34,998 nucleotides of DNA from Gemmatimonadaceae bacterium (GTDB lineage Bacteria; Latescibacterota; UBA2968; UBA8231), in NCBI GenBank assembly GCA_002726335.1, contig PBSR01000125.1:1-34998 (forward strand), in the 5' to 3' direction. The notes beneath the pieces were generated by a model, which was not told the origin of the DNA, did not search any database, and saw nothing but the letters and a program-made list of their open reading frames with translations. Of this stretch, positions 1 through 33,114 are shown piece after piece. The position numbers and the translations under genes are program-made. Within the stretch, counting starts at the first letter, position 1. Each line of letters opens with the position of its first letter.

Positions 1-579
1 GTCGGCACTCGTGGCCACCGGCACCATCCGCGGTGCGTTGACGGCGTCCGTATCCAGGGTGATGTAAATGGTGCCGTCGTCACCGATGTACATGCCTTTC
101 ACCACCTCGATGCGGTAGTCTTCCCGTGTTGCCACGACGGTCCTCGGGGCGGCGATGATGTTCCCATTCGACGTGGACAGGGCATATCTGATCCCGTCCA
201 CCGGGTTCACCGCCCGCGTTTCACCCTCCCGGTGTACTTCGCGGATTGCCTCGATCGGTACCCCGGCAGGCAGATCGACAGACGGTCGGATCATGCTCCA
301 CTGGAGACTGCCAGCGGCATCGGGCCGGCCCTGTGCGATGGTTTCACCCACAAGATCCTCCGGTCGGGAAATCTCGAGGCGCTGGATCGTACCGTTGTTG
401 ACCTGCACGTAGAGCCGGTGACTCAGTGGGTCCTTTTCGATGCGGAAAGAGTTACGCTCCAGGTTTACCACGTGGCGCACCTGGATGTCGTCCCGCAGGG
501 GCGTGGGATCAGAAAAAACCGGCACCGCGATGGTGGCGCCCGCGAACAACAGCATGATAAACAGGGCTCTGCGATTCAT
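1..579 (-). CDS. Secreted protein of unknown function, N-terminal part only (runs off window start)
   Basis: An open frame of 193 codons starts at the ATG at 579-577 and continues through base 1 without a stop, so only the N-terminus is present. Residues 1-23 form a clear Sec signal peptide (MNRRALFIMLLFAGA, then a hydrophobic run ending near VFS). The mature part is rich in short beta-strand-like segments such as RLYVQVNNGTIQRLEI and GMYIGDDGTIYITLD, which recall beta-propeller blades, but I do not recognise a family. A strong Shine-Dalgarno (AGGGAG on the minus strand, about 583-590) sits in the 16-bp gap after the cytochrome gene, so it is co-transcribed with it. A redox partner such as a PQQ or sugar dehydrogenase-like propeller would make sense beside a cytochrome, but this is a guess. 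Confidence 0.75.
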   Translation of the reverse strand, partial: MNRRALFIMLLFAGATIAVPVFSDPTPLRDDIQVRHVVNLERNSFRIEKDPLSHRLYVQVNNGTIQRLEISRPEDLVGETIAQGRPDAAGSLQWSMIRPSVDLPAGVPIEAIREVHREGETRAVNPVDGIRYALSTSNGNIIAAPRTVVATREDYRIEVVKGMYIGDDGTIYITLDTDAVNAPRMVPVATSAD

Positions 580-595
580 ACGGACTCCCTTGTCG

Positions 596-1975
596 TCATT
601 TCAATTGGATGAGTTTGCGCTTCAGACTCTGGTCGGGGGCCTGGAGCCGGTAGATGTAGGCGCCGGAGGCGGCCTGCTGTCCTGCGTCGTTGCGGCCGTC
701 CCACCGTGTCGTGTACTGACCAGGGGGGTGGAACCGATCCACCAGAACCCTGACCGACTGGCCGGCGGCGTCGAATACGGTCAGCGAAACGGGTCCAGCA
801 CGGCCGACGCGGTAGCGGATCGTCGTCGACGCGTTGAAGGGATTGGGGAAATTCGATTCGAGGGCGTACCCCGCGGGCAGATCCTGATCGACGCTCACGT
901 GCGTCTTCACATCGATCCGATCGATCCAGCGCCGGATGACCTCAGCGCTTTGCGAGTCGATCAGTTCCGTGGCCAGGGGTGGCATGCGGTTGGAATCGGT
1001 GGCCAGCATACGCTTGTACAGGCTTGAGTTGAGACCGTCCCCGGACCTGATGATGCGCGCGTCATCCGAGTCGAAGCTCCCCAATGTGGGGATACGGTCG
1101 AGGGCCCGTGTCCGCTCCAGCGGCGTCTCGAAACGCAGGTCGATGTCGGCCTTGTCGATCACGCCCGGACGATGGCAGTGGGCGCAGTTCGCCTCGAGGT
1201 ACGAACGGGCCCGGACATCGAGATCCTGTGACTCGTCCAGGGGATCCACCATGCGCGGCAGATCCCCGAGCTCGGACTGGATGTCGCGGGTGAACACGCC
1301 CAGACGGTTGAGGGTGTGCAGCTGGTTTTCCGTGACCGCGCCGTAGTCGAAGAGTCCGTTCAGCTGCCCCGTGTTGACACCGAGGACGGATCCGGCCTCC
1401 GCCACGTGGCAGCGGTCACACAGCGGACGGCTGGGAAAGAAGTGTTTGTGTTCGCGGATGCCGTCCTCCGCCCTTGGGTCGAGGACGAAGTAGGACTCGG
1501 TGGCCTCTCGGTCCAGCAGCACCGCATCGCTGCCGTCGTCCGCCCACCGATAGCTGAAGCCGTGCCACTTGTCGGCCTGCCCATCGTACACCAGCAGGCG
1601 GGTCTCGATCAGGTCGCGGCTGCTCGGGTCACCGGTGTCGAACTCCAGGTAGAAGTTCTTCACCAGCACGGTGCCGTCGGGAAAACGCCAGAGATCTCTG
1701 GCCGAGAACTCGATCCGCTCCGTCCCCGGCAAGGCGATAAAGCGCTCCTTGTAGGCCCCGTCTGACCACAACACGGCGTTCACACCGTACGGGATGATTC
1801 CCGGGGAAACCGTGCGGATCTCGCTGTCGCTGTAGAGGCCGGAGGACGAGATCGTCGACGGCGGGTCCTGTGGCGAAATCAGGAGCGATCGATTGGCGAC
1901 GCGCGTCTCGACATCGAACACCTGGGCATCGGCCACGGCGTGTAGTAGAAGCAGGCCGTTGAGCATCATTCGCAT
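596..1975 (-). CDS. Diheme c-type cytochrome (SO2930/HNE_0200-like) with C-terminal FlgD-type domain
   Basis: The 459-aa secreted protein has two haem c attachment motifs, CDRCH near residue 186 and CAHCH near residue 264, and a candidate axial Met in NRMPP near 331. The body matches my recollection of the SO2930/HNE_0200 family of periplasmic diheme cytochromes of unknown function (motifs such as GVNAVLWSDGAYKERF and FPDGTVLVKNFYLE). Unusually, residues about 370-459 form a FlgD-type Ig-like domain (SNFPNPFNASTTIRY, TRWDGRNDAGQ, SGAYIYRL), like those on the surface proteins upstream. I start it at the ATG at 1975; a TTG one codon earlier is possible. No strong Shine-Dalgarno is visible. A short hydrophobic leader (LNGLLLLHAVADAQ) fits export. 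It lies 33 bp after the TPR gene and 16 bp before the next one. Role: electron transfer, partner unknown. Confidence 0.85.
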   Translation of the reverse strand: MRMMLNGLLLLHAVADAQVFDVETRVANRSLLISPQDPPSTISSSGLYSDSEIRTVSPGIIPYGVNAVLWSDGAYKERFIALPGTERIEFSARDLWRFPDGTVLVKNFYLEFDTGDPSSRDLIETRLLVYDGQADKWHGFSYRWADDGSDAVLLDREATESYFVLDPRAEDGIREHKHFFPSRPLCDRCHVAEAGSVLGVNTGQLNGLFDYGAVTENQLHTLNRLGVFTRDIQSELGDLPRMVDPLDESQDLDVRARSYLEANCAHCHRPGVIDKADIDLRFETPLERTRALDRIPTLGSFDSDDARIIRSGDGLNSSLYKRMLATDSNRMPPLATELIDSQSAEVIRRWIDRIDVKTHVSVDQDLPAGYALESNFPNPFNASTTIRYRVGRAGPVSLTVFDAAGQSVRVLVDRFHPPGQYTTRWDGRNDAGQQAASGAYIYRLQAPDQSLKRKLIQLK

Positions 1976-2008
1976 CAATACTTATGGTATGAGCCGCTTC
2001 GGGCAGGG

Positions 2009-3568
2009 TCAAGGATCACCCCGGACCTGGTGGGCCCGGAACGTGCGCAGTGCGGCAATCGCCTGAATCGTGTCTCCCAGGCCCCGGTGGGCCATCGCCC
2101 TGCCGTAGTGTGCGGTGACGTACGACGAGTCAGCCCCCAGGACCGAGTTGTAGTGCTCGAGTGCCTCGGAGTAGTCCTCTTTCTGCAGGGCCACGTTGCC
2201 CAGACCGTGCAGGGCATCGGCGTATCCCGGATGCAATTCGAGAACTTTGCTGTAGGCCAACCGCGCCTGCCCGAGGAGTCCTTCCATCAGGTAGGCGTTG
2301 CCAAGATTGTTCCAGGCCAGTTTGTACGTGTCGTCGATGGACAACGCCTGCCGATAGGCGACGATCGCCTCGTTGACCTGCTCCATCCTCATGTTGGCGC
2401 TGCCCAGGTTGTGCCAGGCCTGAGCATGCATCGGGTTGATCGCCAGGGAGTGCCGGAACTGTTCAGCCGCCTTCTCCGGAAGGCCCAGTTTGGTGTACAC
2501 CGTTCCCATGTTGTAGTGGGCTACTGGATCGTTGGGATTGGTCGCCAGCAGCATACGACTCTTGCGGATCGCATCGAAGTAGGAATTGACGCGATCAAAC
2601 ACGGCCTTCTGCCGCTGCCCTTCCTCGATCTTGCCTTGTCGCAGATAGACCGAGGACAGGTTGTAGTGCGCCTCAGGGTAGGCGGGATTCAACCGGATCG
2701 CGTGCAGGAGATGGACCTCCGCCTCCGCGTGCTGGCCGGCACCGGCAAGAGCCTGCCCCAGGCCGTTGCGGGCGGGCGCGGACGATGAATCCAGTGCGGT
2801 GGCCGCGCCAAAGGCTTCGATGGCCTCGGCGTGCCGACTCAGCCGTAGATAAACACGACCCAGACCCGTATGGAAGAGCTCGTTTTCGGGCTCCAGGCGG
2901 ATGGCCGACGCCATGGCCTCGATGGATCCCTCGCACTCGCCCAGCTTCAGACACTGCATGTCACCCAGCGTGTAGAAAGCCAGTCCATACTCGTCGTCGA
3001 GTTCGGTCGCCCGCTTCAGCGAAGCGACGGCAGCGGGATACGAACGCCATCCCGCATAGGCGACACCCAGATTGTAATGTGTTCGTGGGTGGTCTGGCTC
3101 CATGGCCAGAGCTGACTCGAGGGCTTCCTGCGCCTCGATATAGCGTCGGGTGCCAAGGTAGACATCGGCGAGACGCCGATAGGCATCGACGTTCGCCGGA
3201 TCGATGGCGATCGATCTCTTGTAGGCGGCGATGGCCCTCACGGAGTCACCGCGGCGAGACAGCACCTCAGCCATACCGAGGAAAGCCAGCGCCTGGCTGG
3301 GGTCCAGGTCCAGTGCGGCACCATAGGCAGTGAGGGCCTCGTCATACCGGTTCTGTTCCAGCAGCACGTCACCGAGTTCTATCTGGAGCGTGGCGTTCTG
3401 GGGGTCCTGCTGAATCTTCTCGCGGTACGACTTCTCCGTCTGGTGCAGGCGTTCCCGCAGCTGCGCCGTCGTCTCTTGCGGTGGATCCGGTATCGCGCAC
3501 CCCGCGCCGAACCATGACGAGACCAGCAGACAGATCGTGACCGGGTATCGGCGGTGAATTCGGGTCAT
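2009..3568 (-). CDS. TPR-repeat lipoprotein
   Basis: The 519-aa protein begins with a lipoprotein signal (MTRIHRRYPVTICLLVSSWF, lipobox GAGC, Cys24). The rest is about 13 tetratricopeptide repeats of 34 residues, with typical A-x-x-LG-x-x-Y and A-x-x-x-Y/F-x-x-A-L-x-x-x-P patterns; one repeat region around residues 300-330 is degenerate. TPR arrays bind proteins, so it is probably a membrane-tethered scaffold. The ATG at 3568 is separated from the stop of the upstream CRTAC1-like gene by one base (TAACATG), implying translational coupling. TPR proteins and CRTAC1/ASPIC-UnbV proteins often sit together in environmental bacteria, so the two may work as a pair. The frame stays open further upstream, but the lipobox start decides against the longer form. 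Confidence 0.88.
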   Translation of the reverse strand: MTRIHRRYPVTICLLVSSWFGAGCAIPDPPQETTAQLRERLHQTEKSYREKIQQDPQNATLQIELGDVLLEQNRYDEALTAYGAALDLDPSQALAFLGMAEVLSRRGDSVRAIAAYKRSIAIDPANVDAYRRLADVYLGTRRYIEAQEALESALAMEPDHPRTHYNLGVAYAGWRSYPAAVASLKRATELDDEYGLAFYTLGDMQCLKLGECEGSIEAMASAIRLEPENELFHTGLGRVYLRLSRHAEAIEAFGAATALDSSSAPARNGLGQALAGAGQHAEAEVHLLHAIRLNPAYPEAHYNLSSVYLRQGKIEEGQRQKAVFDRVNSYFDAIRKSRMLLATNPNDPVAHYNMGTVYTKLGLPEKAAEQFRHSLAINPMHAQAWHNLGSANMRMEQVNEAIVAYRQALSIDDTYKLAWNNLGNAYLMEGLLGQARLAYSKVLELHPGYADALHGLGNVALQKEDYSEALEHYNSVLGADSSYVTAHYGRAMAHRGLGDTIQAIAALRTFRAHQVRGDP

Positions 3569-3569
3569 G

Positions 3570-5288
3570 TTACGGTTGTTCGCTGACGGGCTCTTCGATG
3601 ACGAGGAACTGGTTGGCCTCGACCTGCTCCAGCGTCTGCCGGATGCCGCTCGGCCAGCGCACTTCAATCCTGTCGGCCATGGTCAGGCTGCCGAGACCGA
3701 AGTGGACCCGGAGGTCGTTCTGCGACAGGTAGCTGCTGCCGGCGCGCACCTCCTCTGACTGCACAAAACCATCGGCATGGACGGTGATCAGGGCGCCGAT
3801 GCCGTCCCGGTTGCTCGTCTCGCCCACGGTCCTGATGGACAACCAGTTGTTGCCGTTCCCCCCGTCGTTGCGCAGCAACATGGGGCGATGGTTGTTGTTG
3901 CTGACGAACAGGTCGAGGTCACCGTCGTTGTCGTAATCTCCCGTTGCCGATCCCCTGCCCACCTTCGGACGATTGTGCTCCAGCCCGGCTTGCTCCGACA
4001 GGTCATCAAAGGTCTTGTCACCGTTGTTGTGGAACAGCTGGTCATGCTGGGCATAATCCGGGCCGCCCTTGTCGATGATGCCGATGTTGGGATCCACATG
4101 GCCATTGGCGATGAACAGATCGAGAAACCCATCGTTGTCGTAGTCGAAGAAATCGGTACCGAAGGTCAGTGTGGCGTACGTCGGTTCCCCCAGTCCTGAC
4201 AGGAACGTCCGGTCCTCGAAAAAGCCGTCCCCCTGATTGGCCAGCAGACGGCAACTCTCCCACTGGAAATTGCAGACGATGATGTCCATCAGTCCATCGC
4301 GGTCATAATCACCCCAGTCGGTGCCCATGCCAGCCTCCGGACGAGCCTCAGGGTTCACCGCCACCCCCGAGGTCAGGCCGATCTCGGTGAATCCACCCCT
4401 GCCGTCGTTGCGGAACAGCCAGTTTGGTTTCGTATCGTTGGCGATGTACATGTCAGCATCGCCATCCTGGTCATAGTCGCTGAACACGACCCCGAGCTGG
4501 CGGCCGGACTCGTCGTAGACACCAGCTTCCCGGGTCACATCGGCGAAGGTGCCATCCCCTTCGTTGTGGTAGAGAACACCCGAGACACCCTCATACTGAC
4601 CAGGCCCACAGTAGACCGGGATGACGCCGTGGCGGCAGTCCCTGGGCTTGTCCATTGGTACATGAGCGTTGTTGGCCACATACAGATCGACAAATCCGTC
4701 GCCGTCGACATCGGCGAAGGCAGCACTGGTACTCATGCGGGGGTCACCTACGCCGGCCTGTCGGGTCACGTCGGAGAACGTGCCATCGCCATCGTTCCGA
4801 AACAACACATTGGGCCCGAAGTTGGTCACATAAAGATCAGCGTCGCCGTCGTTGTCATAATCAGCGGCGCAGACACCCAGGCCGTATCCGAGATCGCCGA
4901 CACCTGCGTGCTCCGTGATATCTGAGAACGTGCCATCGCCGTTGTTCTCAAACAGGGCGTTGGTTGGCTCGAAGGACTCGATAAAACCGGGCAGGGCGGC
5001 GCTGTTGATCAGGTAGAGGTCCTGATCTCCGTCGTTGTCGTAATCGACGAAGACGACACCGGAGCCGTAGGTCTCCGGATAGTAGAACCGTCCGGTGGAC
5101 CCGTTGATGTGCTGGAAATCGATGCCTGACGTCAAGGTGACGTCGATGAAGACGGGAGTTACAGACGCCGAAGGCAGACCCTTCGGCGTCTGTTCACTCT
5201 CTTGCCTGCTGCACGACGATCCAAGAAGAAGCAGGATCGCGAGGGGTGTGGCCGCCCGCCAGAGGGTCGGCAGCGGGCGTCGATCCAA
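3570..5288 (-). CDS. CRTAC1-like lipoprotein: FG-GAP/VCBS repeats plus ASPIC/UnbV domain
   Basis: The 572-aa protein has a lipoprotein signal (TPLAILLLLGSSC, Cys26). It contains at least seven FG-GAP/VCBS-type repeats with Ca-binding loops of the form DYDNDGDxDLY, from about residue 80 to 470, consistent with a beta-propeller. Residues about 480-565 form an ASPIC/UnbV domain (NWLSIRTVG, RAGSSYLSQNDLRVHFGLG, IEVRWPSG). The family is common in Planctomycetes, Acidobacteria and FCB bacteria; its biochemical role is not settled, though surface binding or adhesion is likely. The start is the TTG immediately after the stop of the upstream gene (TAATTG), and no Met lies between it and the lipobox; the Shine-Dalgarno is weak. 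A perfect 14-bp inverted repeat lies in codons 33-43 (see 5161-5193). Confidence 0.87.
   Translation of the reverse strand: MDRRPLPTLWRAATPLAILLLLGSSCSRQESEQTPKGLPSASVTPVFIDVTLTSGIDFQHINGSTGRFYYPETYGSGVVFVDYDNDGDQDLYLINSAALPGFIESFEPTNALFENNGDGTFSDITEHAGVGDLGYGLGVCAADYDNDGDADLYVTNFGPNVLFRNDGDGTFSDVTRQAGVGDPRMSTSAAFADVDGDGFVDLYVANNAHVPMDKPRDCRHGVIPVYCGPGQYEGVSGVLYHNEGDGTFADVTREAGVYDESGRQLGVVFSDYDQDGDADMYIANDTKPNWLFRNDGRGGFTEIGLTSGVAVNPEARPEAGMGTDWGDYDRDGLMDIIVCNFQWESCRLLANQGDGFFEDRTFLSGLGEPTYATLTFGTDFFDYDNDGFLDLFIANGHVDPNIGIIDKGGPDYAQHDQLFHNNGDKTFDDLSEQAGLEHNRPKVGRGSATGDYDNDGDLDLFVSNNNHRPMLLRNDGGNGNNWLSIRTVGETSNRDGIGALITVHADGFVQSEEVRAGSSYLSQNDLRVHFGLGSLTMADRIEVRWPSGIRQTLEQVEANQFLVIEEPVSEQP
5161..5193 (-). 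repeat. Perfect 14-bp inverted repeat (hairpin) inside a coding region
   Basis: ACAGACGCCGAAGG (5161-5174) and its exact reverse complement (5180-5193) are separated by a 5-base loop. The hairpin lies about 95-128 nt into the CRTAC1-like coding sequence, in the linker just after the lipidated Cys (codons 33-43). It has no T-tract after it on the coding strand, so it is not a canonical intrinsic terminator. A structure this stable at that place could slow translation or tune expression, or it may be a remnant of a mobile palindromic element. Confidence 0.8.
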
Positions 5289-7928
5289 TTAGCCGATACC
5301 TGCAAACACAGTCATGAAAATCAGCAGGTTCGTTTCTGACTCGCTCTTGAAGTTCCGCTTCTCCCAGCGGCCACCGAGGTTCGCTCTGAGGCGATAGCCA
5401 AGATAGTGCGACTGATTCGAGAACTGTGTTGCCAGCACGATCTGCTCGAAGTCCTCCCGGTAACCGGCGGGCAGGGGATCGGGACGTGCACGCAGATTGC
5501 GAAAGATCTCGTACTCGAACCCAGATTCGAGACGCAAGGTGGGCAACAGATCATATTGGGCCACGAGGAAGCCGATATTGGACAGTTCGTTGATCTTCAA
5601 TCCGTCCCGGTCCGTCGGGGTCCGACGCATGTACAACTGTTTCCACTTGGGCATCAGCGTCAACTGCGGTCCGGCTTCGAATTCGTAATCTGCCTTGTTG
5701 ATCAGCGCCAGCAGGGTCTCGTCCCGAATGCCGGCACGCTTCGTCTGCTGGTGATAGATCTCGTGCTTGAACTTCGTCTCCAGGTTCAAGTTGGAGAACT
5801 TGCCGATCCTCGTGTCCGCATAGAACGTGTTGATCAGCACGTCTCGAGCAATGAGAGGGTCGGCGAAATCCTGCATGCCACCCGTGGAGAAAGGCGGCTG
5901 CACCCAGAGAATGACGTCCTCGGCAATGTCGTCCTTGACGCTCCGCAGGTTGTTGTACAGCTGCCAGCGAAGTTCATGCTGCGGCACTTCATCGCGAAGT
6001 GTCAGCATACCATACATGGACTTGCTGCGCCGGTCGTCGCTCAACAGTCTTTCCCGCATCCGACCTACCATGAGACGACTTCCAGGCTTGATCTCAACGC
6101 CACCATAGACATTGTAGCCCCGGTGATCCCGCTTGTACGGATAGTCAGCCTCGCGGTCATTCTCGAAGCGATCGATCACCGTGTTGTTGTTCATGTCCGC
6201 CCCGTAGAGAAACTCGAGGGGGTCGACATTGTAGCGGATGAAGGGCTCTATATAGTCAGGCTGGCCATTGTCATTCTGATTGAAGTCGGACTCCAGATCG
6301 TTGTTCTCGTCGTAACCCGGAAATACGGCCAGGTCCGCCGTTCGCGTTCTGGCTGCCTGGTTGCTGCTGCCACCACCGGTGAAGCGACGCGACCAGTCCG
6401 GAAAACGGTCCTGGTCATCGTTGTCATCGACGAACTCAAACAGGTACGTGGCCTCGTTCTCGTAGTCCACAAAGCCACGTTGATCGGGAATGAACATGCC
6501 CGTGTTGTATTCGGGGTCCATGCTGAAGACCTCACCGTACCCAAACCACGGGTACACCGTATGCGAGGCAGTGGCGAAGTAGGCTTCGGCATTCTGCTGG
6601 CCCAGGGCCTGATCCTTCAGAATGTTCTGGTTGGGAAAACGGCTGAACCGCCGATTGACGTCGTATTCTGCACGCACGTTCAAGCCGCCGAACAGGTCCT
6701 TCACATCGATGGTCAGGCCGGCGATCTCGTTGGCCGACGGGATGCCATAGGTAAACCGGACGATACGCTGGTTGGAACCATCCTGAATGTTGCCACGAGC
6801 GGTCTCAATCGGCAGAAAAACCGGCTCGCCAGTGTCATTTGTCTGCACGTTGGAAGCGATGTCGATGGCGTAGTCGTTGGCCAGGACCAGCTCGATTTCA
6901 ACCTTGCCGATTTCACGGAAGTCTGTGATCTGGTCGTCTGGACCCGGAAGAAAGTCACGCTCGATATCGTAGATCAGGGTGATCACGTTGCCGCCGTTGG
7001 CTTCGAGACGACCGCCCCGGCGCACGCCGCCGTCGACCAGGGGTCTGATCTCGGGATGCTGAATGCCATCGATATAAACTCGTTCCAGAAACAGCACTGC
7101 CCCGCCGACACCGTCGGCGGGAGAATCATCAGACAGTCGGACCAGGAGGCGCTGCACATTGCCGGTATTCAGTCGGCCGCTCAGCATGCCTTTCAGCGAG
7201 TTGTTGTTGGCATCGAGAGAGCTGCTCCAGTGGCCGGCGTTGACATAGGTGGCACCCACGTTGACGAAGTCGCCGACCTGCGCCGTGCCGCGGAAACCCA
7301 TCAGGTTCGTGAAGGTTGTACGCGTGGACGGCGGCAGGCCCCGGAAAGAATTCACTGTCGATGGCGCACTCACGCGGGACGCCAGGATCGTCAGGTCGTA
7401 TTTGTCCCAGCTCATGTCCCACTGCACACCATCGAACAGCGGCTTCGAGAAGGTCATGGGTGTCAGGGTCGTCCGCAGCATCTCGCCGATCGTCAACGAC
7501 ATGGCGAACTGACCGCGAGAGGCGGATGAGATCAGGATGCGGTCGAACCACGAGCCGAACTCGATGGATTTAGAGATGCCACTGCCGAATTCTGCGGGAT
7601 GCTCCTGGGTCCAGTTATACACCTGCCAACCACGGGTGATGTAGTTGCCGTAGAGATCGTAGAAGCGATCGCCCTGGAGCTCGAGATCGGTATATCGCTG
7701 GTAGTTGTCCTTGGCGTAGTTGGTATACTCCCAGTTCTTCCAACCATACAGATCGTACAGCGTCTGCGGCAGGTACCACTTGCGCAAGGCGGGAGTGATC
7801 GTCTCTGGCGCGATCCTCACGCCGGTGGTGGCGTACGGGTTGAAAAAACCCGATTCGAGGCCCGCCCCAAGAGCATGGTCTGCCAACAAGACAGTCAACA
7901 ACAAGGTGGGTAGAAGCGTCCGCCGCAT
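5289..7928 (-). CDS. Large predicted outer-membrane (beta-barrel) protein with acidic Ca-loop-like segment
   Basis: The 879-aa protein has a signal peptide (MRRTLLPTLLLTVLLADHALG). I see no catalytic family. It is rich in aromatic and alternating polar/hydrophobic strands (FGSWFDRILISSASRGQFA, LGYRLRANLGGRWEKRNF) and ends LLIFMTVFAGIG, compatible with a beta-barrel closing strand. Mid-protein (roughly 470-590) there are acidic Asn/Asp-rich stretches (DDNDDQDRFPDW, NQNDNGQPDYIEPF, DMNNNTVIDRFEND) that resemble thrombospondin-3/EF-like calcium loops. Start choice: the ATG at 7928 has an excellent AAGGGAG site 7 nt upstream; ATGs at 7943 and 7949 lie before that site. It follows the discoidin/FlgD gene by 17 bp. 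Likely role: membrane-embedded partner or exporter for the surface proteins encoded upstream, but this is inference. Confidence 0.75.
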   Translation of the reverse strand: MRRTLLPTLLLTVLLADHALGAGLESGFFNPYATTGVRIAPETITPALRKWYLPQTLYDLYGWKNWEYTNYAKDNYQRYTDLELQGDRFYDLYGNYITRGWQVYNWTQEHPAEFGSGISKSIEFGSWFDRILISSASRGQFAMSLTIGEMLRTTLTPMTFSKPLFDGVQWDMSWDKYDLTILASRVSAPSTVNSFRGLPPSTRTTFTNLMGFRGTAQVGDFVNVGATYVNAGHWSSSLDANNNSLKGMLSGRLNTGNVQRLLVRLSDDSPADGVGGAVLFLERVYIDGIQHPEIRPLVDGGVRRGGRLEANGGNVITLIYDIERDFLPGPDDQITDFREIGKVEIELVLANDYAIDIASNVQTNDTGEPVFLPIETARGNIQDGSNQRIVRFTYGIPSANEIAGLTIDVKDLFGGLNVRAEYDVNRRFSRFPNQNILKDQALGQQNAEAYFATASHTVYPWFGYGEVFSMDPEYNTGMFIPDQRGFVDYENEATYLFEFVDDNDDQDRFPDWSRRFTGGGSSNQAARTRTADLAVFPGYDENNDLESDFNQNDNGQPDYIEPFIRYNVDPLEFLYGADMNNNTVIDRFENDREADYPYKRDHRGYNVYGGVEIKPGSRLMVGRMRERLLSDDRRSKSMYGMLTLRDEVPQHELRWQLYNNLRSVKDDIAEDVILWVQPPFSTGGMQDFADPLIARDVLINTFYADTRIGKFSNLNLETKFKHEIYHQQTKRAGIRDETLLALINKADYEFEAGPQLTLMPKWKQLYMRRTPTDRDGLKINELSNIGFLVAQYDLLPTLRLESGFEYEIFRNLRARPDPLPAGYREDFEQIVLATQFSNQSHYLGYRLRANLGGRWEKRNFKSESETNLLIFMTVFAGIG

Positions 7929-7945
7929 CGGGCTCCCTTTCATTA

Positions 7946-10261: not shown

Positions 10262-10328
10262 TTTCCCCTCGTCTCTTGCAGCACCGTCATCAGCAGTTGC
10301 ACAAGTGGCCACGTTCCGCACCCCGAGA

Positions 10329-12320: not shown

Positions 12321-12327
12321 AGTCACC

Positions 12328-14229
12328 TCAGTAGGCCACCTGAACGAGGCGTGTCTTGCTGATATCCCCGGTGGCCGTTTCGATGTTGATCCGGGCCATA
12401 TACACACCCGGAGGCACCGGACTCCCCGCCCCGTCGGTGCCATCCCATGCCGGTGCGTAGATACCGGCCGTCAGAGTTTCCGATGAGACGTCACGTACGA
12501 GTCGACCGGACAGGTCGTAGACTGAGACCTGACTTGCCGCGGGCTCTACTAGATGGATCAGGACAAAGCTGAATTCGGCCGCATCGTTGATCCCGTCACC
12601 ATTCGGTGTGATGACGGGCGGAACGATCTCAAAGCCCTGTACGAGATCCTCTCCGGCACGGTCGAATATCATGCGCAGGGAATTGCTGCCCACATCGATG
12701 CTCGCATCGCCCTCGGCGAGGGCCTGCGGCAGACTGCCCCTGGTATCGAGAAGTTGGCCGGAGAACTCGGTGCTGAACAGGAACAGGCGGGACCGGAAGG
12801 TGACGCGCAGTCGCTGGTCCCGGCCCTCAGTGATTCGGTTGGAGGGAAAATAGACGAGCAGCTCGTCGGTCTCCTCGCGAACACTGTCGGGTGCAATGTC
12901 GATCAGGTCGGCGCCAAACTCCAACTTGACGAATTCGGCAGCAGCAGAGGTCGCGATACGCAGCCCGTCGAAACCGCTACCGGGATCAGCACCCATGTCG
13001 ACGCGTACATCGTATGTGAGTGTGGTATCGACACCGGCCCGAACCGATGGGATGCCGAAGGCAGGGTTCGGATCATCGAGCAGCGCAACCTCAGCGACTG
13101 CCTGGGCGGCCAGGGCCGGTGAGTTGGTGATGGCCAGGCTGTCGACCTGCACACCATCTGTCGCCGTGCCTTCGAAGGCCAGCCGGTACTGAAAGAATGG
13201 GCGGGGACCCGGAAGTTCAAGGCGGGCACTGTAGACGCTGTCCACATCGGCAAAAATGGGTTCGGTCCATGGCGACCAGTTGGTCAGGTCCGGTCGTATC
13301 GAGCCTCTTTCCTCGGTGGGCGCCGCGTCGTACTCATCCTGTGTGACGACCTGTTCGGCACCCGTCTCCAGATCTACGATCTGGTAGTACTCCAATGGTG
13401 TCTCGTCGCTGCCGTTGCGCATCTGAACCGTCACACTGCCACCGGCGTGAGAGGCATCCGGATTGTCGCCGATCCGTGAAGCCTTGAATGTCAACTGGCC
13501 GAAGTTGACGGGATCCGGCAGTTCGACAAGCTGTGACAGGTACGACCCTCTCGGCACGAAGCCCTCACCATGCACCTCGACTTCAGCGATCTCGAACGGC
13601 CCCGGCGAGCGCACGGTGAGTTTGATGAAACGCAGCAACTGGGGAGGGAAACGGATATCCACCCGCGGCTCGCGGTTCAACTCCACCAGACGAAGAGTCT
13701 CGTAGATCGGGGTATTGCTGGTGTTGTAAAGCCTGCCATCGTTGATGGCGATGGCATAGGCCCGGACAAAGTCAATCTCGCCCTGGGGGCTCGGAAAAAA
13801 GCTGATCTGGCTGGCGGGAAAGGAGGCTCCGAGATCGAGGAAGAAAATCCGACCGGTCTGATCGATGCCGAAACTCTTGAACCGCTCTCCGGTAGTAGTG
13901 GTGGGGTCGCCGTCGACGATCACCGCCGGCGATCCCTGGGTAGCAGCATTGTCCCAGACGTGCCCCTGAGACTCGCTGACGAAATCAACCGTACGATTAT
14001 CTTCCCATGTGATCGCCTCGATCACATTGTCGTCCAGTTCGAAATTGACCGGACGCAGTTCGCCGGCGGCTCCCACGACCAGGCCGGCGATGACGTCGGC
14101 GGGCACCTCCCAGGATTGCCCGCCCTTGCCGACAACCCAGACATCGATCTGGCCGGTGGCGGGGAGCGCGGTCAAGGCCCAGACCAGACCGACAGCACTC
14201 AGAAGGTGGGGGGAACTGAGTCGCGTCAT
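12328..14229 (-). CDS. Secreted surface protein, discoidin-like N-terminus and FlgD-type C-terminus (divergent paralogue)
   Basis: The 633-aa protein has a signal peptide (VGLVWALTALPATGQ) and then VVGKGGQSW, the same post-signal motif as its downstream neighbour. Discoidin-like traits follow: VDGDPTTTTG, IFFLDLGASFPASQISFFPS, LLRFIKLTVRSPGPFEIAEV. The FlgD-type domain occupies about 537-633 (TPNGDGINDAAEFSF, VYDLSGRLVRDV, APAWDGTDGAGSP), ending RLVQVAY. It is more distant from the other two members than they are from each other. Its ATG overlaps the stop of the upstream lipoprotein gene by 4 bp (ATGA), and its stop is 7 bp before the next start. This suggests that the lipoprotein and the two surface proteins are made in fixed ratio and may form a complex; that is inference. 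Confidence 0.8.
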   Translation of the reverse strand: MTRLSSPHLLSAVGLVWALTALPATGQIDVWVVGKGGQSWEVPADVIAGLVVGAAGELRPVNFELDDNVIEAITWEDNRTVDFVSESQGHVWDNAATQGSPAVIVDGDPTTTTGERFKSFGIDQTGRIFFLDLGASFPASQISFFPSPQGEIDFVRAYAIAINDGRLYNTSNTPIYETLRLVELNREPRVDIRFPPQLLRFIKLTVRSPGPFEIAEVEVHGEGFVPRGSYLSQLVELPDPVNFGQLTFKASRIGDNPDASHAGGSVTVQMRNGSDETPLEYYQIVDLETGAEQVVTQDEYDAAPTEERGSIRPDLTNWSPWTEPIFADVDSVYSARLELPGPRPFFQYRLAFEGTATDGVQVDSLAITNSPALAAQAVAEVALLDDPNPAFGIPSVRAGVDTTLTYDVRVDMGADPGSGFDGLRIATSAAAEFVKLEFGADLIDIAPDSVREETDELLVYFPSNRITEGRDQRLRVTFRSRLFLFSTEFSGQLLDTRGSLPQALAEGDASIDVGSNSLRMIFDRAGEDLVQGFEIVPPVITPNGDGINDAAEFSFVLIHLVEPAASQVSVYDLSGRLVRDVSSETLTAGIYAPAWDGTDGAGSPVPPGVYMARINIETATGDISKTRLVQVAY

Positions 14230-14966
14230 TGGATGTCACTGAGCCATTCGGCCGGAGGCTGGTAGCCCTTGTGGACTTCCCGCTCGAAGCGGAAACTGAG
14301 ATCGATCGTCTCGACGGGTTCGCCCTTATAGTCGAAGCGTACGGCCACATCACTGACGTTGACGACGAAGGACTCGACATCCGGATCGAGCGCCGGGAAG
14401 ACGATGTAGCTCTCGGCCTCCTGACCGCTGAACAGCGGGTCGCCTTTGAACATGGTTCTGTTGAGGATATCCTCGCGGGCCTTGAAACGTTTGTAGTCGT
14501 TCCCCGCGTAGGCGATGATGTGGGAGTAGTAGTACTCGACAATCTCCAGCATCTCGAGTGTCTTGTAGGTGCGGTAGCCGTCATCGGAGATCAACTCGAT
14601 CTTGGCCGGATCGACCCGGATCTTGGGATAGGCATAATTCTTGATCCGCAATCGCCAGACGCTGTAACGGGGCGGAATCCACTCTTCGCCCATGCGCGTC
14701 CAGTTGCCATAGGTGTACGGGTTTGTCGAGGCGGCTCCTTTGTCTGAAATGCCCGGAAACTGTCGATTGAGTTCCCCGTCCGACATGGGCAACAGACCGA
14801 TCTCGAGGCGCTCGTACACGTAGGTGACTGATCTGTCATCCTGCACGACCATGTGGTCGGCTTGCTCGGTCTCGGACAGCGGCTGGATCACGCCACCGAA
14901 GTAGCGACCGCAACCTCCGAGCAACACGAGGGCACATAACAACAAGACCGGCGACCTTCTCATCAT
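14226..14966 (-). CDS. Lipoprotein of unknown function
   Basis: The 246-aa protein has a strong lipoprotein signal (MMRRSPVLLLCALVLLGGC, lipidated Cys at about residue 19). I do not recognise the mature domain. It is mixed alpha/beta with a charged, aromatic character (RYSVWRLRIKNYAYPKIRVD, YYYSHIIAYAGNDYKRFKA) and ends with a beta-rich part (SYIVFPALDPDVESFVVNVS, ETIDLSFRFEREV), which could be a small Ig-like sandwich. Two adjacent ATGs at 14966 and 14963 are preceded by AGAAGG; either may be used. The 4-bp overlap with the surface-protein gene that follows makes it a likely membrane anchor or partner for that protein. Confidence 0.78.
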   Translation of the reverse strand: MMRRSPVLLLCALVLLGGCGRYFGGVIQPLSETEQADHMVVQDDRSVTYVYERLEIGLLPMSDGELNRQFPGISDKGAASTNPYTYGNWTRMGEEWIPPRYSVWRLRIKNYAYPKIRVDPAKIELISDDGYRTYKTLEMLEIVEYYYSHIIAYAGNDYKRFKAREDILNRTMFKGDPLFSGQEAESYIVFPALDPDVESFVVNVSDVAVRFDYKGEPVETIDLSFRFEREVHKGYQPPAEWLSDIQ

Positions 14967-14992
14967 CTCTGCCTTCTCTGGAATAGACTGGG

Positions 14993-15024
14993 GGTGAGGC
15001 AGGAACCATGGCCCCTGCCTCACC
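14993..15024 (-). other. Intercistronic hairpin (11-bp perfect stem)
   Basis: GGTGAGGCAGG (14993-15003) and its reverse complement CCTGCCTCACC (15014-15024) flank a 10-base loop. It lies in the 81-bp gap between the CBM9-like gene and the lipoprotein gene. No U-run follows it on the minus strand, so a full intrinsic terminator is unlikely. A partial attenuator or an mRNA-stabilising structure that raises the level of the CBM9-like protein over the downstream products would fit. Confidence 0.65.
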
Positions 15025-15047
15025 TCCAAACTGCATGAAACAGACTG

Positions 15048-15962
15048 CTAGCGGGCGAATGTTGCCTTGATCTTGCCCCACGCCTGGGCTTCGACGGCCG
15101 TGCTGCCGGTGCCCTGGTCGTCGTACTCGCCGATTCCCAGCAGCGTGTATTCGGAAAGGAAGTCCCCGTTGCCGGAGGCGCCCTCCTCACCAGCTGTGGC
15201 GACCTGGTGCGTACGACGAGTCTCGGGGTTGTCAGCTTCGTTCAGCTGATAACCGAAACCGATGGTTTGCCCCACCTCATTGAGGTGCAGCGTGCTGGCA
15301 TCCTGGCCATCAGGAAGAGCGGTATCCCACAACGGCATGGCGAACTCGTAGTGGACCGTGACATCCGTCGCACCGTTGCCCTGGCCGGCGGGTACCGTGG
15401 TGGTCGTGGCTTCGACCAGCTCGTCGAGCCAGTGCATCTCGGGCGCGACCTGCCAGCGGAGCCACCAGGAACCGTCGCCGTAGTCTGACTCGTACCCGTT
15501 GGTTGCCAGGTGCATCGTGAACTGCTGACCGGCGACGCCACGGGTGTCGAACTCACCCTCCATCGGGCCGCCACTGAGGTCAGGATCGGCAACGACCTCG
15601 AGGTCGTCATCGCGCCAACCGTCGTCCAGCAGGGTCTCGATGACGGTCAACGTGTCATCGGTGACACGGACGAAACCGAAAATCTTGTTGTCGCGGTCCG
15701 TACCGGTCCACGCCGTATAGGCGGCGATGTCGAGATCGGCCTTCGTCGGCATCTCGCCAGCGAGAATCTCGGTCATGTCGTCCGGCCCGTAGATGAAATT
15801 GGGGTCGAACCAGGACCAGTCACTGATGTCGCCATCGGCGGTGATCGTGTGGCCTGCCGGGACTTCGAGAGCGAAATAGCCAATGCCGTTGGCATTGGAG
15901 CCGGCGATGCTGGCGCTTGCCATGGCAAGGACCAGCCCCGCGGCGGTAGCGAAACGTCTCAT
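15048..15962 (-). CDS. Secreted CBM9-like/DOMON-like sugar- or haem-binding domain protein
   Basis: The 304-aa protein has a signal peptide (MRRFATAAGLVLAMASASIAG). Most of it is a single beta-sandwich resembling carbohydrate-binding module family 9 and related DOMON-type domains: an opening ITADGDISDWSWFDPNF, then AAYTAWTGTDRDNKIFGFVR, DDDLEVVADPDLSGG and, later, VHYEFAMPLWD and GQTIGFGYQLNEADN. In that family these segments carry the ligand groove; the ligand here cannot be told from sequence alone. The ATG at 15962 has a strong AGGAGAG site. A 156-bp gap separates it from the foldase gene upstream, so it may have its own promoter, although I see no convincing -35/-10 pair. The hairpin at 14993-15024 follows it. 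Confidence 0.75.
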   Translation of the reverse strand: MRRFATAAGLVLAMASASIAGSNANGIGYFALEVPAGHTITADGDISDWSWFDPNFIYGPDDMTEILAGEMPTKADLDIAAYTAWTGTDRDNKIFGFVRVTDDTLTVIETLLDDGWRDDDLEVVADPDLSGGPMEGEFDTRGVAGQQFTMHLATNGYESDYGDGSWWLRWQVAPEMHWLDELVEATTTTVPAGQGNGATDVTVHYEFAMPLWDTALPDGQDASTLHLNEVGQTIGFGYQLNEADNPETRRTHQVATAGEEGASGNGDFLSEYTLLGIGEYDDQGTGSTAVEAQAWGKIKATFAR

Positions 15963-16118
15963 GCTTCTCTCCTGAAAGAGTGATCGGGGGAACAGCTTCT
16001 TTTGGGTAGTTTGGCTCCTGACCCGCATCCGGGCGGAGTAAACGCCTGTACAACAGATAGTTATGGCCTCCTTTCGCGCTTGGTCATGCATTGATTTCTA
16101 GCACTCGAACGCCGAATC

Positions 16119-17852
16119 TTAGCGGAATCCTTCGGCGGTTGTCAAGACGTCGTCATAAACGACGACAGAAGTGGCATAGCGTTGCCGCAGATTCTCCAGG
16201 TAGCTGTAGAAGGATCGGGTGATCTCTTTCCTGAATTCGTGTCTCATCTGGCGTCGAACCGTGTCCTGGACGGTCGGATCGTCGTAAGCGAGAACTTGTG
16301 CCGGCACCACGGCCAACGCCTGCACAAGCAGGTATCCCAACGAGCCATCTTCAAATGGTAATTCCAGGGGTCCGCCGATGTCGCCAGGCTGCAGGTTGCG
16401 CACCAACTCCACCGCTTTCGCCCACCGTGCCCCATGGGAGGCGTCCGTCCTGGAAGTGGTAAAGTGGAACACATCGTAGGTACGCCACTGCTCCGAGAAC
16501 GCCGGGTATTGCTTCATGATGGCAGCAAGACCTTCGCCGCGTCTCAGGCGCGCCAGGACCTGCTCTGCCTCGGTCTTCGATTCGACGAGGCCGCCTTCGA
16601 AGAAGATTCGTTCCGGCTCGAGGAAATCCGGTTGATGGTTCTCGTAATAGGCGTACCGGACTTTTTCTGTGAGATACTGGTCTTCAATGACTGTCCGGCG
16701 CAGCATCTCGACCATGGCCTGGTCACGTTTCTCATCCAGGTAGGAGGCGACGTCGTCATCCTCATGCCAGCCCTTCCGCTCGGCCACGATGGGCAACACC
16801 ACCCGTTGCATGGTCTCCTGCTCGACGTACTGGGCAATGGCGGTGCTGTCCACCGCCCGAGGGCGGTCGTCCATGGTCGTGTCCCGCAGCATTTCCAGAT
16901 AGTCGCCGAGACTGATCTCGCCTTCGCTGTGTCGAGCCAGAATCCTCGTGTGTTCCGCCGTTGCGATCGGCGGCATGCGGTACACCGCAAGTCGGCCTTC
17001 GTCGAGCAGATACTCCAGGGTTCCGGTGTCGACGGTGACTGCGAAGCGATCGCGTTCCTCGGCGAGATATTCAGCCCACCGGGCTCTCTTTTTCTGTCGT
17101 TGCAGAGCCCGTCGTATCTGGTCAACCTGCCGTTCGAAGCCCAGCAGTCGATGCTCGGTTACCTTGACCAGATGGAACTTGCCTCGGGCGTTCCGGTAGG
17201 GCTTGGCAATCTTGCCCAACTCCACGCCGATGAACTGCTGTACGAATGAACTCCTGCGAGCGTCCTCTTCCTGCCAGAAGCCGAGATCGCCCCCCTTCTG
17301 TGCCGTCGGCGCATCGAGGGACAACTCGCGGGCCAGATCGGCAAAGTCCTCGCCGGCATCCAGACGATGCATGATCGCCTCGAGATCTTCGGGCTTGTCG
17401 ACGAGGATGTGGCTTGCCCGGACCTCCCGCTTCTGGTCGAGTCCGTTGTCCACGAAGTGCTGCCGGGTCTCGGCGTCGGTGACCACCACGGAATGAGAGA
17501 TCTCCTCGCGGTAGACCTTCTCGGCCAACTGCCGGCGGCGAATCCCGGCCAGCGTCCGCTGCACTCTCGCCGATGTGTCCAGGCTTGTCTTGCGCGCTTC
17601 CAGCAGCAACAGTTCGCGGTCGATGAAGGGCTGCAGTAGCTCCCTGTTCTCCTGGTTCTCCCGGAAACGGCGCAGTCGGCGTTCGGCACCGAGCAGATCC
17701 CCCATGGTGATCTGCCGTTCGCCAACCCTGGCCACGACGGCGGAATCCACGGATCTGGCCGCCGCCCTGACCGGCGTTGCTGGCATCAGGGCAAACAAGC
17801 ATATAAACGCAGCCAAGGTGGGCGTCTTGATCAACAGGGTCCTCGTAACCAT
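16119..17852 (-). CDS. Exported parvulin-type peptidyl-prolyl isomerase/chaperone (SurA/PrsA-like)
   Basis: The 577-aa protein starts with a signal peptide (LAAFICLFALMPATPVRA, about residues 12-30). A SurA-N-like helical region follows (about 35-140). A parvulin domain spans about 143-235, with the usual REVRASHILV entry, ARELSLDAPTAQKGGDLGFW and KFHLVKVTEHR. The C-terminal half repeats the plan in degenerate form, with a helical segment and a second PPIase-like unit around 430-530 (PERIFFEGGL, GLAAIMKQYPAFSEQW). Such proteins help outer-membrane and secreted proteins fold in the periplasm. Being the first gene of the long minus-strand block, it probably serves the barrel and surface proteins downstream. 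I chose the ATG at 17852, in front of the signal sequence; the frame extends 30 codons further up, but that part is Cys-rich and unlike a leader. Confidence 0.86.
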   Translation of the reverse strand: MVTRTLLIKTPTLAAFICLFALMPATPVRAAARSVDSAVVARVGERQITMGDLLGAERRLRRFRENQENRELLQPFIDRELLLLEARKTSLDTSARVQRTLAGIRRRQLAEKVYREEISHSVVVTDAETRQHFVDNGLDQKREVRASHILVDKPEDLEAIMHRLDAGEDFADLARELSLDAPTAQKGGDLGFWQEEDARRSSFVQQFIGVELGKIAKPYRNARGKFHLVKVTEHRLLGFERQVDQIRRALQRQKKRARWAEYLAEERDRFAVTVDTGTLEYLLDEGRLAVYRMPPIATAEHTRILARHSEGEISLGDYLEMLRDTTMDDRPRAVDSTAIAQYVEQETMQRVVLPIVAERKGWHEDDDVASYLDEKRDQAMVEMLRRTVIEDQYLTEKVRYAYYENHQPDFLEPERIFFEGGLVESKTEAEQVLARLRRGEGLAAIMKQYPAFSEQWRTYDVFHFTTSRTDASHGARWAKAVELVRNLQPGDIGGPLELPFEDGSLGYLLVQALAVVPAQVLAYDDPTVQDTVRRQMRHEFRKEITRSFYSYLENLRQRYATSVVVYDDVLTTAEGFR

Positions 17853-19937: not shown

Positions 19938-20798
19938 TCACCCCTTGACGGCACCCAGCTGGATGCCGCGCACGAGGTGCCGCTGGAGCAGCACGAAGAT
20001 GAGGATCATGGGCACCACCGACATGGTGATGGCCGCCATCAACAGGTTGGTCTGCTGACCCTGGGTCGAATCGAAGAACATCAGGCCGATGGGGAGCGTG
20101 TAGCGATGGACGCTCTTCATCATCACCAGGGGCCAGAAGAAGCTCTGGTAATTGCCGATGAAGGTAAAGATCGCCAGCGTGATCATACCCGGGCGGGCCA
20201 GAGGCAGAATCACATCCCAGCACAGTTGCCATTTGCTGGCGCCGTCGATCTCGGCTGCCTCGTCCAGTGAGGCCGGGATTCCGAGCATGAACTGGCGCAG
20301 CAGGAACGTGCCGAAAGCGCTGAACGACGCCGGAATGATCAGTCCCCAGTACGTGTCGACGATACCCAGCTTGATCATCAACTGGTAGTTTGGCACCATC
20401 ATCACGAGAAAGGGCAGCATCATCGTGCCCAGGTAGAGGAGAAACACCTTGTCTCGTCCGGGCCACTTCAGTCGGGAGAAACTGAAGGCGGCCAGCGAGC
20501 TGGTGAGAACCTGCAGGAAGGTGACGGTGGCGGCGATGTAGAGACTGTTCCAGTACCAGCGGCCGAACTGGATGCCCTTTGTCGCGAAGACATCCGAGAA
20601 ATTCGACCACATGAACTGCTCCGGCAGCCAGGTATCCATGCCGGCTTCCTCGATCGTCTTGAGGCCGGTGAGGGCCATCCAGACAAAGGGCAGCGCCAGA
20701 CTCAGACTGCAGAGGGTCAACACCACGTGCAACAACGCCGTGGTCGTCAACTTGCGCCGCAGGAACGCCCGGGTGCGGTTTTCGATCATCTCAGTCAT
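19938..20798 (-). CDS. Sugar ABC transporter permease, MalG type
   Basis: The 286-aa inner-membrane protein has six predicted membrane helices and the conserved EAA loop that contacts the ATPase (EAAEIDGASKWQLCWDVILP, about residues 190-209). Length and layout are normal for the CUT1 carbohydrate-importer family. It begins with ATG at 20798, overlapping the end of the MalF-type gene by 8 bp, and is the last gene of the operon that runs from 26259. It pairs with the MalF-type subunit; no ATPase gene is present, so a shared MsmX/UgpC-type ATPase encoded elsewhere is expected. Its 3' end faces the DUF6785-like gene with no clear terminator between. Confidence 0.93.
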   Translation of the reverse strand: MTEMIENRTRAFLRRKLTTTALLHVVLTLCSLSLALPFVWMALTGLKTIEEAGMDTWLPEQFMWSNFSDVFATKGIQFGRWYWNSLYIAATVTFLQVLTSSLAAFSFSRLKWPGRDKVFLLYLGTMMLPFLVMMVPNYQLMIKLGIVDTYWGLIIPASFSAFGTFLLRQFMLGIPASLDEAAEIDGASKWQLCWDVILPLARPGMITLAIFTFIGNYQSFFWPLVMMKSVHRYTLPIGLMFFDSTQGQQTNLLMAAITMSVVPMILIFVLLQRHLVRGIQLGAVKG

Positions 20799-23765: not shown

Positions 23766-23768
23766 CGA

Positions 23769-30391: not shown

Positions 30392-30411
30392 TTCCAGCAA
30401 GGCAGCCGCCC

Positions 30412-32948: not shown

Positions 32949-32954
32949 AACTGT

Positions 32955-32961
32955 TCCTTTC
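32955..32961 (-). promoter_or_regulatory. Ribosome-binding site deciding the TTG start of the GH4 gene
   Basis: GAAAGGA on the minus strand lies 6 nt before TTG 32948, and the protein then begins AKIVIIGAGSGFG, the normal GH4 N-terminus. Confidence 0.7.
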
Positions 32962-32997
32962 TGATCCAGTGCGTTACACGCCAGCAGTTGGCTCCGG

Positions 32998-33026
32998 GAT
33001 ATAGTGGAGATCAAGTGCCCTGACAA
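32998..33026 (-). promoter_or_regulatory. Candidate sigma70 promoter for the GH4-GH99 operon
   Basis: On the minus strand, TTGTCA (33026-33021; 5 of 6 to consensus), a 17-bp spacer and TATATC (33003-32998; 4 of 6). The predicted transcript start lies about 43 nt before the TTG start of the GH4 gene. Confidence 0.5.
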
Positions 33027-33085
33027 GCCACACATGGAGCTCAGACCTGCCAAGGTCGCCGCGCCCATGCCATTACCTGCACAGC

Positions 33086-33114
33086 TTGCTCGCCTCCTGT
33101 GGGCTTGCTATCAT
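33086..33114 (+). promoter_or_regulatory. Candidate promoter for the surface-protein gene at 33231
   Basis: TTGCTC (33086-33091), a 17-bp spacer and TATCAT (33109-33114; 5 of 6 to consensus). It would give a leader of about 110 nt. It lies in the 282-bp divergent gap between the GH4 gene and the surface-protein gene; apart from these promoters I see nothing in that gap. Confidence 0.4.

Follow-up and report, generated by a model that had tools for sequence, protein, structure and literature searches.

The locus described here bears on the means by which abundant uncultured phyla outside Bacteroidota take up organic matter that is scarce or large. The locus lies on contig PBSR01000125.1, a stretch of 34,998 nt from a bacterium of the phylum Latescibacterota; this whole stretch is called the window below. 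It carries a run of minus-strand genes around a predicted outer-membrane beta barrel that bears no Pfam or NCBIfam name, together with surface proteins, a foldase, and lipoproteins. The gene set recurs many times per genome in relatives, and about 7% of one complete genome is devoted to it. In this study, we describe the set and weigh its possible function.

Gene organization of the locus

Ten complete genes lie on the minus strand between positions 596 and 17852, and a partial one at 1-579 is cut by the window edge. This agrees with a first-pass annotation of the window, which had counted eleven same-strand genes with short or overlapping junctions. The complete genes, from upstream to downstream, are as follows.

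16119..17852, minus strand: PpiC/SurA-like periplasmic foldase, 577 amino acids (aa), with Rotamase Pfam matches
15048..15962, minus strand: CBM9-like secreted protein, 304 aa, with CBM9_1 matches at the family level
14226..14966, minus strand: lipoprotein, 246 aa, with lipobox LGGC and an Ig-like beta sandwich
12328..14229, minus strand: surface protein D3, with a discoidin-like head (by family) and a tail of the type IX secretion system (T9SS) type (FlgD_ig, CHU_C, TIGR04183)
10329..12320, minus strand: surface protein D2, with a discoidin-like head (by family) and a CHU_C/FlgD tail
7946..10321, minus strand: surface protein D1, with two F5/8 type C stretches and a CHU_C/FlgD tail; start codon uncertain
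5289..7943, minus strand: predicted outer-membrane beta barrel of an unnamed family, 884 aa; the start may be at 7928
3570..5288, minus strand: CRTAC1-like FG-GAP/UnbV_ASPIC protein (Pfam), probable lipoprotein, called ASPIC below
2009..3568, minus strand: TPR protein (Pfam), probable lipoprotein
596..1978, minus strand: diheme cytochrome with a T9SS-type tail (TIGR03806, TIGR04183, two CxxCH), accessory

The PpiC and CBM9 genes are 156 bp apart, and the CBM9 and lipoprotein genes 81 bp. From the lipoprotein to the TPR gene, every junction is an overlap or lies within about 20 bp: the lipoprotein and D3 genes overlap by 4 bp, D3 and D2 are separated by 7 bp, D2 and D1 overlap by up to 17 bp or lie up to 7 bp apart according to the start codon chosen, and the next gaps are 2 bp (D1-barrel), 0 bp (barrel-ASPIC), and 1 bp (ASPIC-TPR). 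The TPR-cytochrome gap is 30 bp.

Several assignments of the first-pass annotation were borne out by Pfam, namely the periplasmic foldase (PpiC rotamase matches) and the CRTAC1 (FG-GAP and UnbV_ASPIC) and TPR proteins, whose lipoprotein status is probable. No Pfam or NCBIfam family was found for the lipoprotein at 14226-14966. The CBM9-like assignment holds for the family, by fold and sequence family, and not for the window's own member taken alone, which falls below threshold (E 0.016; no match at E<=0.01). CBM9_1 was found in 6 of 21 family members, and the family profile matched the CBM9 of the T. maritima xylanase (1i82) at E 1.1e-4. The two-tryptophan sugar clamp of the T. maritima module is presumably formed by W71 and W175; in the alignment, the first Trp position is conserved in the family and the second is not.

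The cytochrome had also been counted as part of the apparatus. A diheme cytochrome of the SO2930 family is indeed present (TIGR03806, 213 bits, under the cut-off of 313), and it bears a FlgD/T9SS tail (TIGR04183, 30.4 against 23). Its label was found in 6 of the 80 related loci described below, and it is an accessory outside the conserved set.

Recurrence and joint divergence of the units

A degenerate scan of genome contigs gave at least 592 stretches, of which 287 were confirmed as relatives, and the best 80 were kept as loci. By its homologues, the window belongs to Latescibacterota, and the closest to it of the 80 loci is from UBA8231 (95% identity over the best barrel segment). Some loci come from metagenome-assembled genomes named 'Gemmatimonadetes' that a published table places in Latescibacterota class UBA2968 (RS822 and SAT162; PMC9874027). 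Two barrel contigs carry other labels, L018 (Desulfobacterales, 12.9 kb) and L059 (Thermoplasmata, 3.2 kb), and are probably misbinned Latescibacterota contigs.

The 80 loci themselves supplied the sequences for the hidden Markov models behind the gene-set labels, and six of these loci belong to OX638377, the chromosome tested later. By best label, a D gene was found in 73 loci (in 72 with half or more of a D profile covered), CBM9 in 51, the lipoprotein in 44, PpiC in 40, TPR in 34, ASPIC in 31, DUF6785 in 18, MalG in 11, and MalF in 9. Where at least 22 kb was available (n=29), the counts were D 29, CBM9 25, PpiC 25, lipoprotein 23, TPR 20, ASPIC 16, and DUF6785 11. Of the seven loci without D, six start with the barrel, or close to it, at the end of a contig; L072 is a true exception. 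Among the 74 loci where a gene precedes the barrel, 67 have a same-strand D gene immediately upstream (median gap 27 bp; 54 of 67 within 100 bp), and 66 of these 67 cover at least half a D profile. The order and strand of TPR, ASPIC, PpiC, and DUF6785 vary among loci.

The complete 6.27-Mb chromosome OX638377 has 60 barrel-profile matches, which fall into 48 stretches and 31 clusters and include 47 barrel genes over 780 aa. As controls, 31 random 20-kb regions of this chromosome at least 10 kb from barrels were used. Barrel against control regions, the counts were D 31 vs 3 (Fisher p 1e-14), PpiC 26 vs 0 (8e-13), CBM9 24 vs 0 (3e-11), lipoprotein 12 vs 0 (6e-5), TPR 20 vs 4 (3e-5), and ASPIC 13 vs 4 (0.011). 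The D profiles share the tail with other T9SS proteins; a recheck that required half or more of a D profile to be covered retained 85 of the 89 D genes from barrel regions, all 5 from controls, and 180 of the 195 from the 80 loci. D precedes 33 of the 47 barrels with a preceding gene, and nine more barrels follow another barrel. The core genes (barrel, D, PpiC, CBM9, lipoprotein, TPR, and ASPIC), among them 89 D genes, make up 464 kb of open-frame length or 7.4% of the chromosome; the share is 6.3% without TPR and ASPIC, which also occur elsewhere. The first-pass annotation had proposed a search for the gene set in other genomes, with failure to find the genes together as its refutation; they were found together far above control regions.

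Ten whole genomes, chosen by us via the loci of the contig scan, have 18 to 67 barrel-profile matches each. The second complete chromosome among them, OY282352, has 56 matches in 28 clusters. Five genomes (G001, the genome of OX638377; G002, that of OY282352; G005, G006, and G007) have 50-67 matches and the other five (G003, G004, G008, G009, and G010) have 18-41; that the former group is sponge-associated is a guess from sample labels. In a phylum sample, the barrel was found in 39 of 64 genomes, four of which (G016-G019) match only distantly, with best E-values of about 1e-48 to 1e-50. Scoring in this sample covered only about 14 candidates per genome, so that its match counts are lower bounds. 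Because 24 of the 25 genomes without a match are 3.5-6.5 Mb in size, the system appears confined, in this sample, to part of the phylum. No description of it was found in a literature search by titles and abstract beginnings, with subscription papers and preprints outside the search.

The units also diverge together. In OX638377, mean identity is 0.42 among barrels vs 0.24-0.38 among partners (D 0.28). With one barrel per cluster of this chromosome, Mantel correlations between barrel and nearest-partner distances were 0.65 for D (n 31), 0.76 for CBM9 (n 24), 0.63 for PpiC (n 22), 0.94 for the lipoprotein (n 12), 0.64 for TPR (n 20), and 0.54 for DUF6785 (n 13), all with p <=6e-4. This shows that the units are inherited as blocks; it does not prove physical contact.

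Surface proteins and type IX secretion

Three discoidin-like surface proteins with FlgD-type C-termini had been proposed. The heads are supported, directly for D1 and through the family for D2 and D3, and the tails call for another name. D1 is the only D protein with a direct F5/8C Pfam match (F5_F8_type_C_2, E 4e-11, two stretches); it scores 27.2 for CHU_C and 27.6 for FlgD_ig, each against a cut-off of 27. D2 matches both CHU_C (E 2e-5) and FlgD_ig (E 4e-5) below their cut-offs and aligns with the D3 family in alignment A6. D3 exceeds the cut-offs for FlgD_ig and CHU_C and scores 25.5 for TIGR04183 against 23. Among the 20 sequences chosen for A6, F5/8C was found in 7, and CHU_C and FlgD_ig tails in all 20 at E<=0.01.

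The T9SS was tested in the ten whole genomes. SprA is over cut-off and the PorV family is present in all ten, PorU is over cut-off in nine, and PorU lies directly beside PorV in OX638377. Because the tails match T9SS sorting models and SprA, PorV, and PorU are present in relatives, the 'FlgD-type' tail is more plausibly a type IX sorting domain, and the D proteins are predicted type IX cargo. PorV-family matches number 10-15 per genome vs one or two SprA-like frames, and paralogous PorV proteins may sort different cargo.

D genes also cluster with no barrel in reach, as in 3 of the 31 control regions, in the window at 28097-34998, and in the relatives L150 and L151.

The barrel family

The barrel family comprises 627 proteins at E<=1e-3 of 7995 candidates scored. 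No credible sequence match was found in Pfam, NCBIfam, or PDB, and a plasmid search with the barrel gave no match. Alignments were made from 34 (A1) and 27 (A2) of 120 listed barrels, each with the window's own. Thirty-five members searched against Pfam at E<=5 gave no family, thus neither a TonB-receptor nor an usher domain, and both identities were rejected by sequence. SprA was rejected as well (hhalign probability 1.9%, with only two SprA rows); the listed TIGR04189 matches fall, in each genome, into one or two SprA-like frames that are not at barrel positions. An apparent in-frame TAG in two barrels examined is the ordinary stop just beyond the last strand.

The AlphaFold 2 model is rich in strands and has a beta-sandwich domain inserted after the first strands of the barrel. 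Foldseek matched it to MtrB, SlpA, FimD, LptD, and porins. The best E-values belong to MtrB and Deinococcus SlpA/SDBC, with low TM-scores; for the top match, 6r2q_B (MtrB), E is 6.7e-9 and the TM-scores are 0.26/0.32. The FimD/PapC ushers reach E-values down to 5e-6. By predicted fold, the protein is thus probably an outer-membrane barrel of a family without a sequence-level name, as the barrel-like assignment of the first-pass annotation had it. The best-conserved stretch is Asp/Asn-rich (about residues 541-600, 3.3-3.4 bits per column). It belongs to a loop at about 503-606 with 29% D+N vs 14% overall and many invariant Asp/Asn, modelled with low confidence, which probably resembles thrombospondin-type calcium-binding loops.

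Neighbouring genes and inner-membrane transporters

The remaining features of the window lie upstream of the run.

17976..19931, plus strand: DUF6785/DUF6784 multi-pass inner-membrane protein, divergent from the operon (PF20581, E 2e-117)
19938..25271, minus strand: ATP-binding cassette (ABC) importer of the sugar type, with two BPD_transp_1 permeases and two SBP_bac_1, adjoining the operon
28097..30391, plus strand: D1 paralogue, 61% identity to D1, no barrel in the window
33231..34997, plus strand: D2 paralogue, 61% identity to D2, cut by the window edge

The two SBP_bac_1 genes are in tandem (22263-25271), share 72% identity, and stand beside one BPD_transp_1 permease pair. The D paralogues had been placed among sugar importers and glycosidases. 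Paralogues and GH4 and GH99/WbsX-like genes are there, and the substrate-binding protein gene at 26353 is SBP_bac_5, not the sugar-type SBP_bac_1 found with BPD_transp_1 at 19.9-25.3 kb. SBP_bac_5 is the class best known for peptides and nickel. The contig of the nearest relative ends inside the D2 paralogue, and no barrel is reachable there from this second D cluster (28-35 kb).

DUF6785 is the best-linked inner-membrane partner of the barrel units and a possible permease. In OX638377, 13 of the 31 barrel regions have it, against 3 of the 31 controls (Fisher p 0.004). The matches number 50 in OX638377 and 44 in OY282352 (3 of the 44 were dropped before counting), a number close to that of the barrels. 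Of the DUF6785 loci, 26 of 46 in OX638377 (7.8 expected) and 16 of 38 in OY282352 (6.0 expected) have a barrel cluster within 15 kb, each at p about 7e-4, the floor of 1,500 rotations. Within 8 kb, OX638377 has 15 vs 4.7 expected (p 0.002). Inner-membrane transporters taken together (DUF6785, MalF/G, or SBP1 labels) occur in 16 of 31 barrel vs 4 of 31 control regions (p=0.0012).

Aligned by hhalign with OPT (32 and 59 rows), DUF6785 is colinear over 496 columns at E 0.0076 and probability 5.1%. Control pairs with MalG and the barrel gave E 0.28-0.39, and a comparison with a single OPT sequence gave probability 1.7%. At 5.1% at best, membership of DUF6785 in OPT falls below proof. The DUF6785 profile gave no match at E<=1 in a PDB sequence search, and no papers on DUF6785 were found in a literature search with the same scope as above.

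The unit orthologous to that of the window adjoins, in other genomes, MR_MLE, DHDPS-family, and substrate-binding protein/MalF/MalG genes. Other units adjoin an OPT transporter (L022), M28 and S9 peptidases, GDSL acylhydrolases, and an M28-FtsX fusion. The last (locus L093, 1915-6540) joins an M28 peptidase to an FtsX permease and lies within a barrel unit that also has DUF6785; open reading frames (ORFs) of 1.4-1.5 thousand residues in L061, L062, L064, and L068 are like it in size and place only.

Proposed function and its alternatives

The reading that we put forward, at about even confidence, is that the locus is one unit of a hugely paralogous set that forms a lineage-specific, multi-substrate outer-membrane uptake system; the transport direction and ligands we infer. 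Type IX secretion would carry the discoidin-type D proteins to the cell surface, a route suggested by their tail domain, and there they and the CBM9-like protein would capture ligand. The 880-aa barrel would act as a gated outer-membrane channel that takes the ligand in. The SurA-like foldase may serve the folding of barrel and cargo, and the lipoprotein and the TPR and ASPIC proteins would be accessory. A linked permease, mostly DUF6785 and at some loci a sugar-type ABC importer or OPT, could carry out the inner-membrane step. The small organic ligands would differ from unit to unit, with sugars or sugar acids likely in the case of the window's own unit and not in that of every unit.

Several observations weigh against this uptake reading. 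Neither a TonB plug nor any other element for energy coupling was found in the barrel, the model has middling confidence (predicted local distance difference test 65.5, predicted TM-score 0.61), and it resembles exporters (ushers and LptD) as well as importers. DUF6785 shows no excess within 8 kb in OY282352 (5 vs 3.7 expected, p 0.30) or within 3 kb in either chromosome (p 0.92 and 0.88), its likeness to OPT is weak, and MalF taken by itself shows no enrichment (4 vs 1, p 0.18). The Mantel correlations can arise from duplication of whole units without physical interaction, and locus L072 (17.3 kb) has a barrel without any usual partner. Classical TonB-receptor genes (PF00593) are also present in all ten whole genomes, with 10 to 24 matches each; therefore, the cell is not without the classical route.

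A more specific form of the uptake reading is tentative. It holds that the units may represent a separate, plug-less class of outer-membrane acquisition in part of Latescibacterota, with an orphan barrel that has an internal gate domain, an Asp/Asn-rich docking loop of calcium type, type IX-exported discoidin/CBM9-type capture proteins, and OPT-like DUF6785 permeases expanded in parallel, without SusD or TonB-receptor parts.

A dedicated glycan-capture machine, that is, a Latescibacterota counterpart of the SusC/SusD polysaccharide-utilisation loci, is unlikely. The first-pass annotation had proposed a surface machine that does the SusC/SusD job with unrelated parts. The tests bear out a co-inherited apparatus of the outer surface whose sequences, as far as compared, are unrelated to SusC/SusD; glycan specificity is not supported, and the signal for recurrence next to glycan-use genes is marginal at most. 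Discoidin and CBM9-like domains are often carbohydrate-binding, SusD was not found in 8 of 10 genomes, and sugar-type ABC genes stand beside the window's operon and some other units (MalG label in 11 of 80 loci). The MR_MLE and DHDPS-family enzymes of the orthologous unit also suit this alternative. Against it, 5 of 46 sulfatase loci lie within 10 kb of barrels vs 5.6 expected, and 1 vs 3.4 expected within 5 kb (3 of 55 sulfatase matches, fragments beside kept ones, were dropped before the count). Sugar-type ABC pairs, defined by an ad hoc cut as permease pairs under 80 bits, are marginally enriched: 1, 3, 4, 5, and 6 of 13 lie within 5, 8, 10, 15, and 20 kb of barrel clusters (p 0.63, 0.16, 0.07, 0.054, and 0.044, the last nominal), with 1.6 expected at 10 kb. 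The value at 20 kb speaks for the glycan alternative, and those at 5 and 10 kb speak against it.

The other neighbours of the units are of mixed families. Of 134 neighbours listed, 101 were kept after 33 were dropped by hand (L072, near-duplicate loci, and a few others), and 68 of 368 ORFs served as controls. No glycoside hydrolase was found among the 25 of 55 families listed for 68 non-core neighbours or the 25 of 126 listed for the 101 neighbours, and homologues of the window's GH4 and GH99 were found in 0 of 80 loci. Among the 25 families listed for each set, the 68 neighbours have four FGE-sulfatase domains, four PhyH, and three MR_MLE; the 68 controls have five PhyH, one GH32, one sulfatase, and no FGE-sulfatase. 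The FGE-sulfatase domains favour the glycan alternative, and the peptidases and OPT beside other units speak against it.

Similarly doubtful is a machine for export, anchoring, or a surface coat, in which the barrel would display or assemble the D proteins, usher-like or S-layer-like, for adhesion or a protein coat. The Foldseek matches to FimD/PapC and Deinococcus SlpA fit this idea, the inserted beta-sandwich recalls the plug of ushers, the foldase is present in 26 of 31 units, and discoidin domains suit adhesion. However, the T9SS that would export the D proteins is already present, no usher family matched the 35 members even at E<=5, and linkage to inner-membrane transporters is not expected under export.

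It is very improbable that the genes form no common machine and are merely neighbouring, functionally separate envelope genes: the variable order and strand of TPR, ASPIC, PpiC, and DUF6785 and the lone barrel of L072 would fit, but the set recurs in 31 of 31 clusters of one chromosome, with tight D-barrel junctions and co-varying divergence. Least probable of all is an MtrB-like electron conduit, which the top Foldseek match and the diheme cytochrome of the window recall, given the low TM-scores, a cytochrome label at 6 of the 80 loci (the only haem protein looked for in relatives), and the lack of a multihaem protein among the window's translated genes, where two CxxCH motifs occur, in the cytochrome alone.

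Comparison with known systems

The D proteins and the cytochrome resemble T9SS (SprA, PorU, PorV) cargo in their CHU_C, Por_Secre_tail, and FlgD_ig tails. The tests made do not identify the 880-aa barrel as SprA, and it would be an additional partner rather than a part of the T9SS core. With the chaperone-usher ushers (FimD, PapC), it shares a predicted large barrel with a beta-sandwich inserted after early strands; it differs in the lack of a PF00577 domain and in low TM-scores, and neither a pilin nor a FimC-type gene was seen in the units. Deinococcus SlpA/SDBC and MtrB are also large beta barrels, with no sequence relation found and no matching partner genes. As for OPT (PF03169), a true OPT gene adjoins one barrel, and the similarity of DUF6785 to it is only suggestive. 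A Latescibacteria genome paper assigns polymer-breakdown products to 'non-specific porins' and vitamin B12 and iron to TonB receptors (PMC4454575).

The ligands, once found, would explain the niche of the lineage and provide a natural second solution to the SusC/SusD problem. They would also give DUF6785 a function and extend type IX secretion to a defined role in surface capture.

The closest likeness is to SusC/SusD (RagA/RagB) of Bacteroidota. Both systems have many paralogous copies per genome, an outer-membrane barrel gene beside more variable surface-binding proteins, carbohydrate-binding-type domains, and inner-membrane importers nearby. Unlike SusC, the barrel gave no Pfam match to a TonB plug or receptor domain. 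PF07980 (SusD) was not found in eight of the ten whole genomes, and in the other two it gave one partial match with an in-frame stop. The binding proteins have T9SS tails, and sulfatases are not enriched in the genome tested. Most likely, the system works like SusC/SusD without being a member of it.

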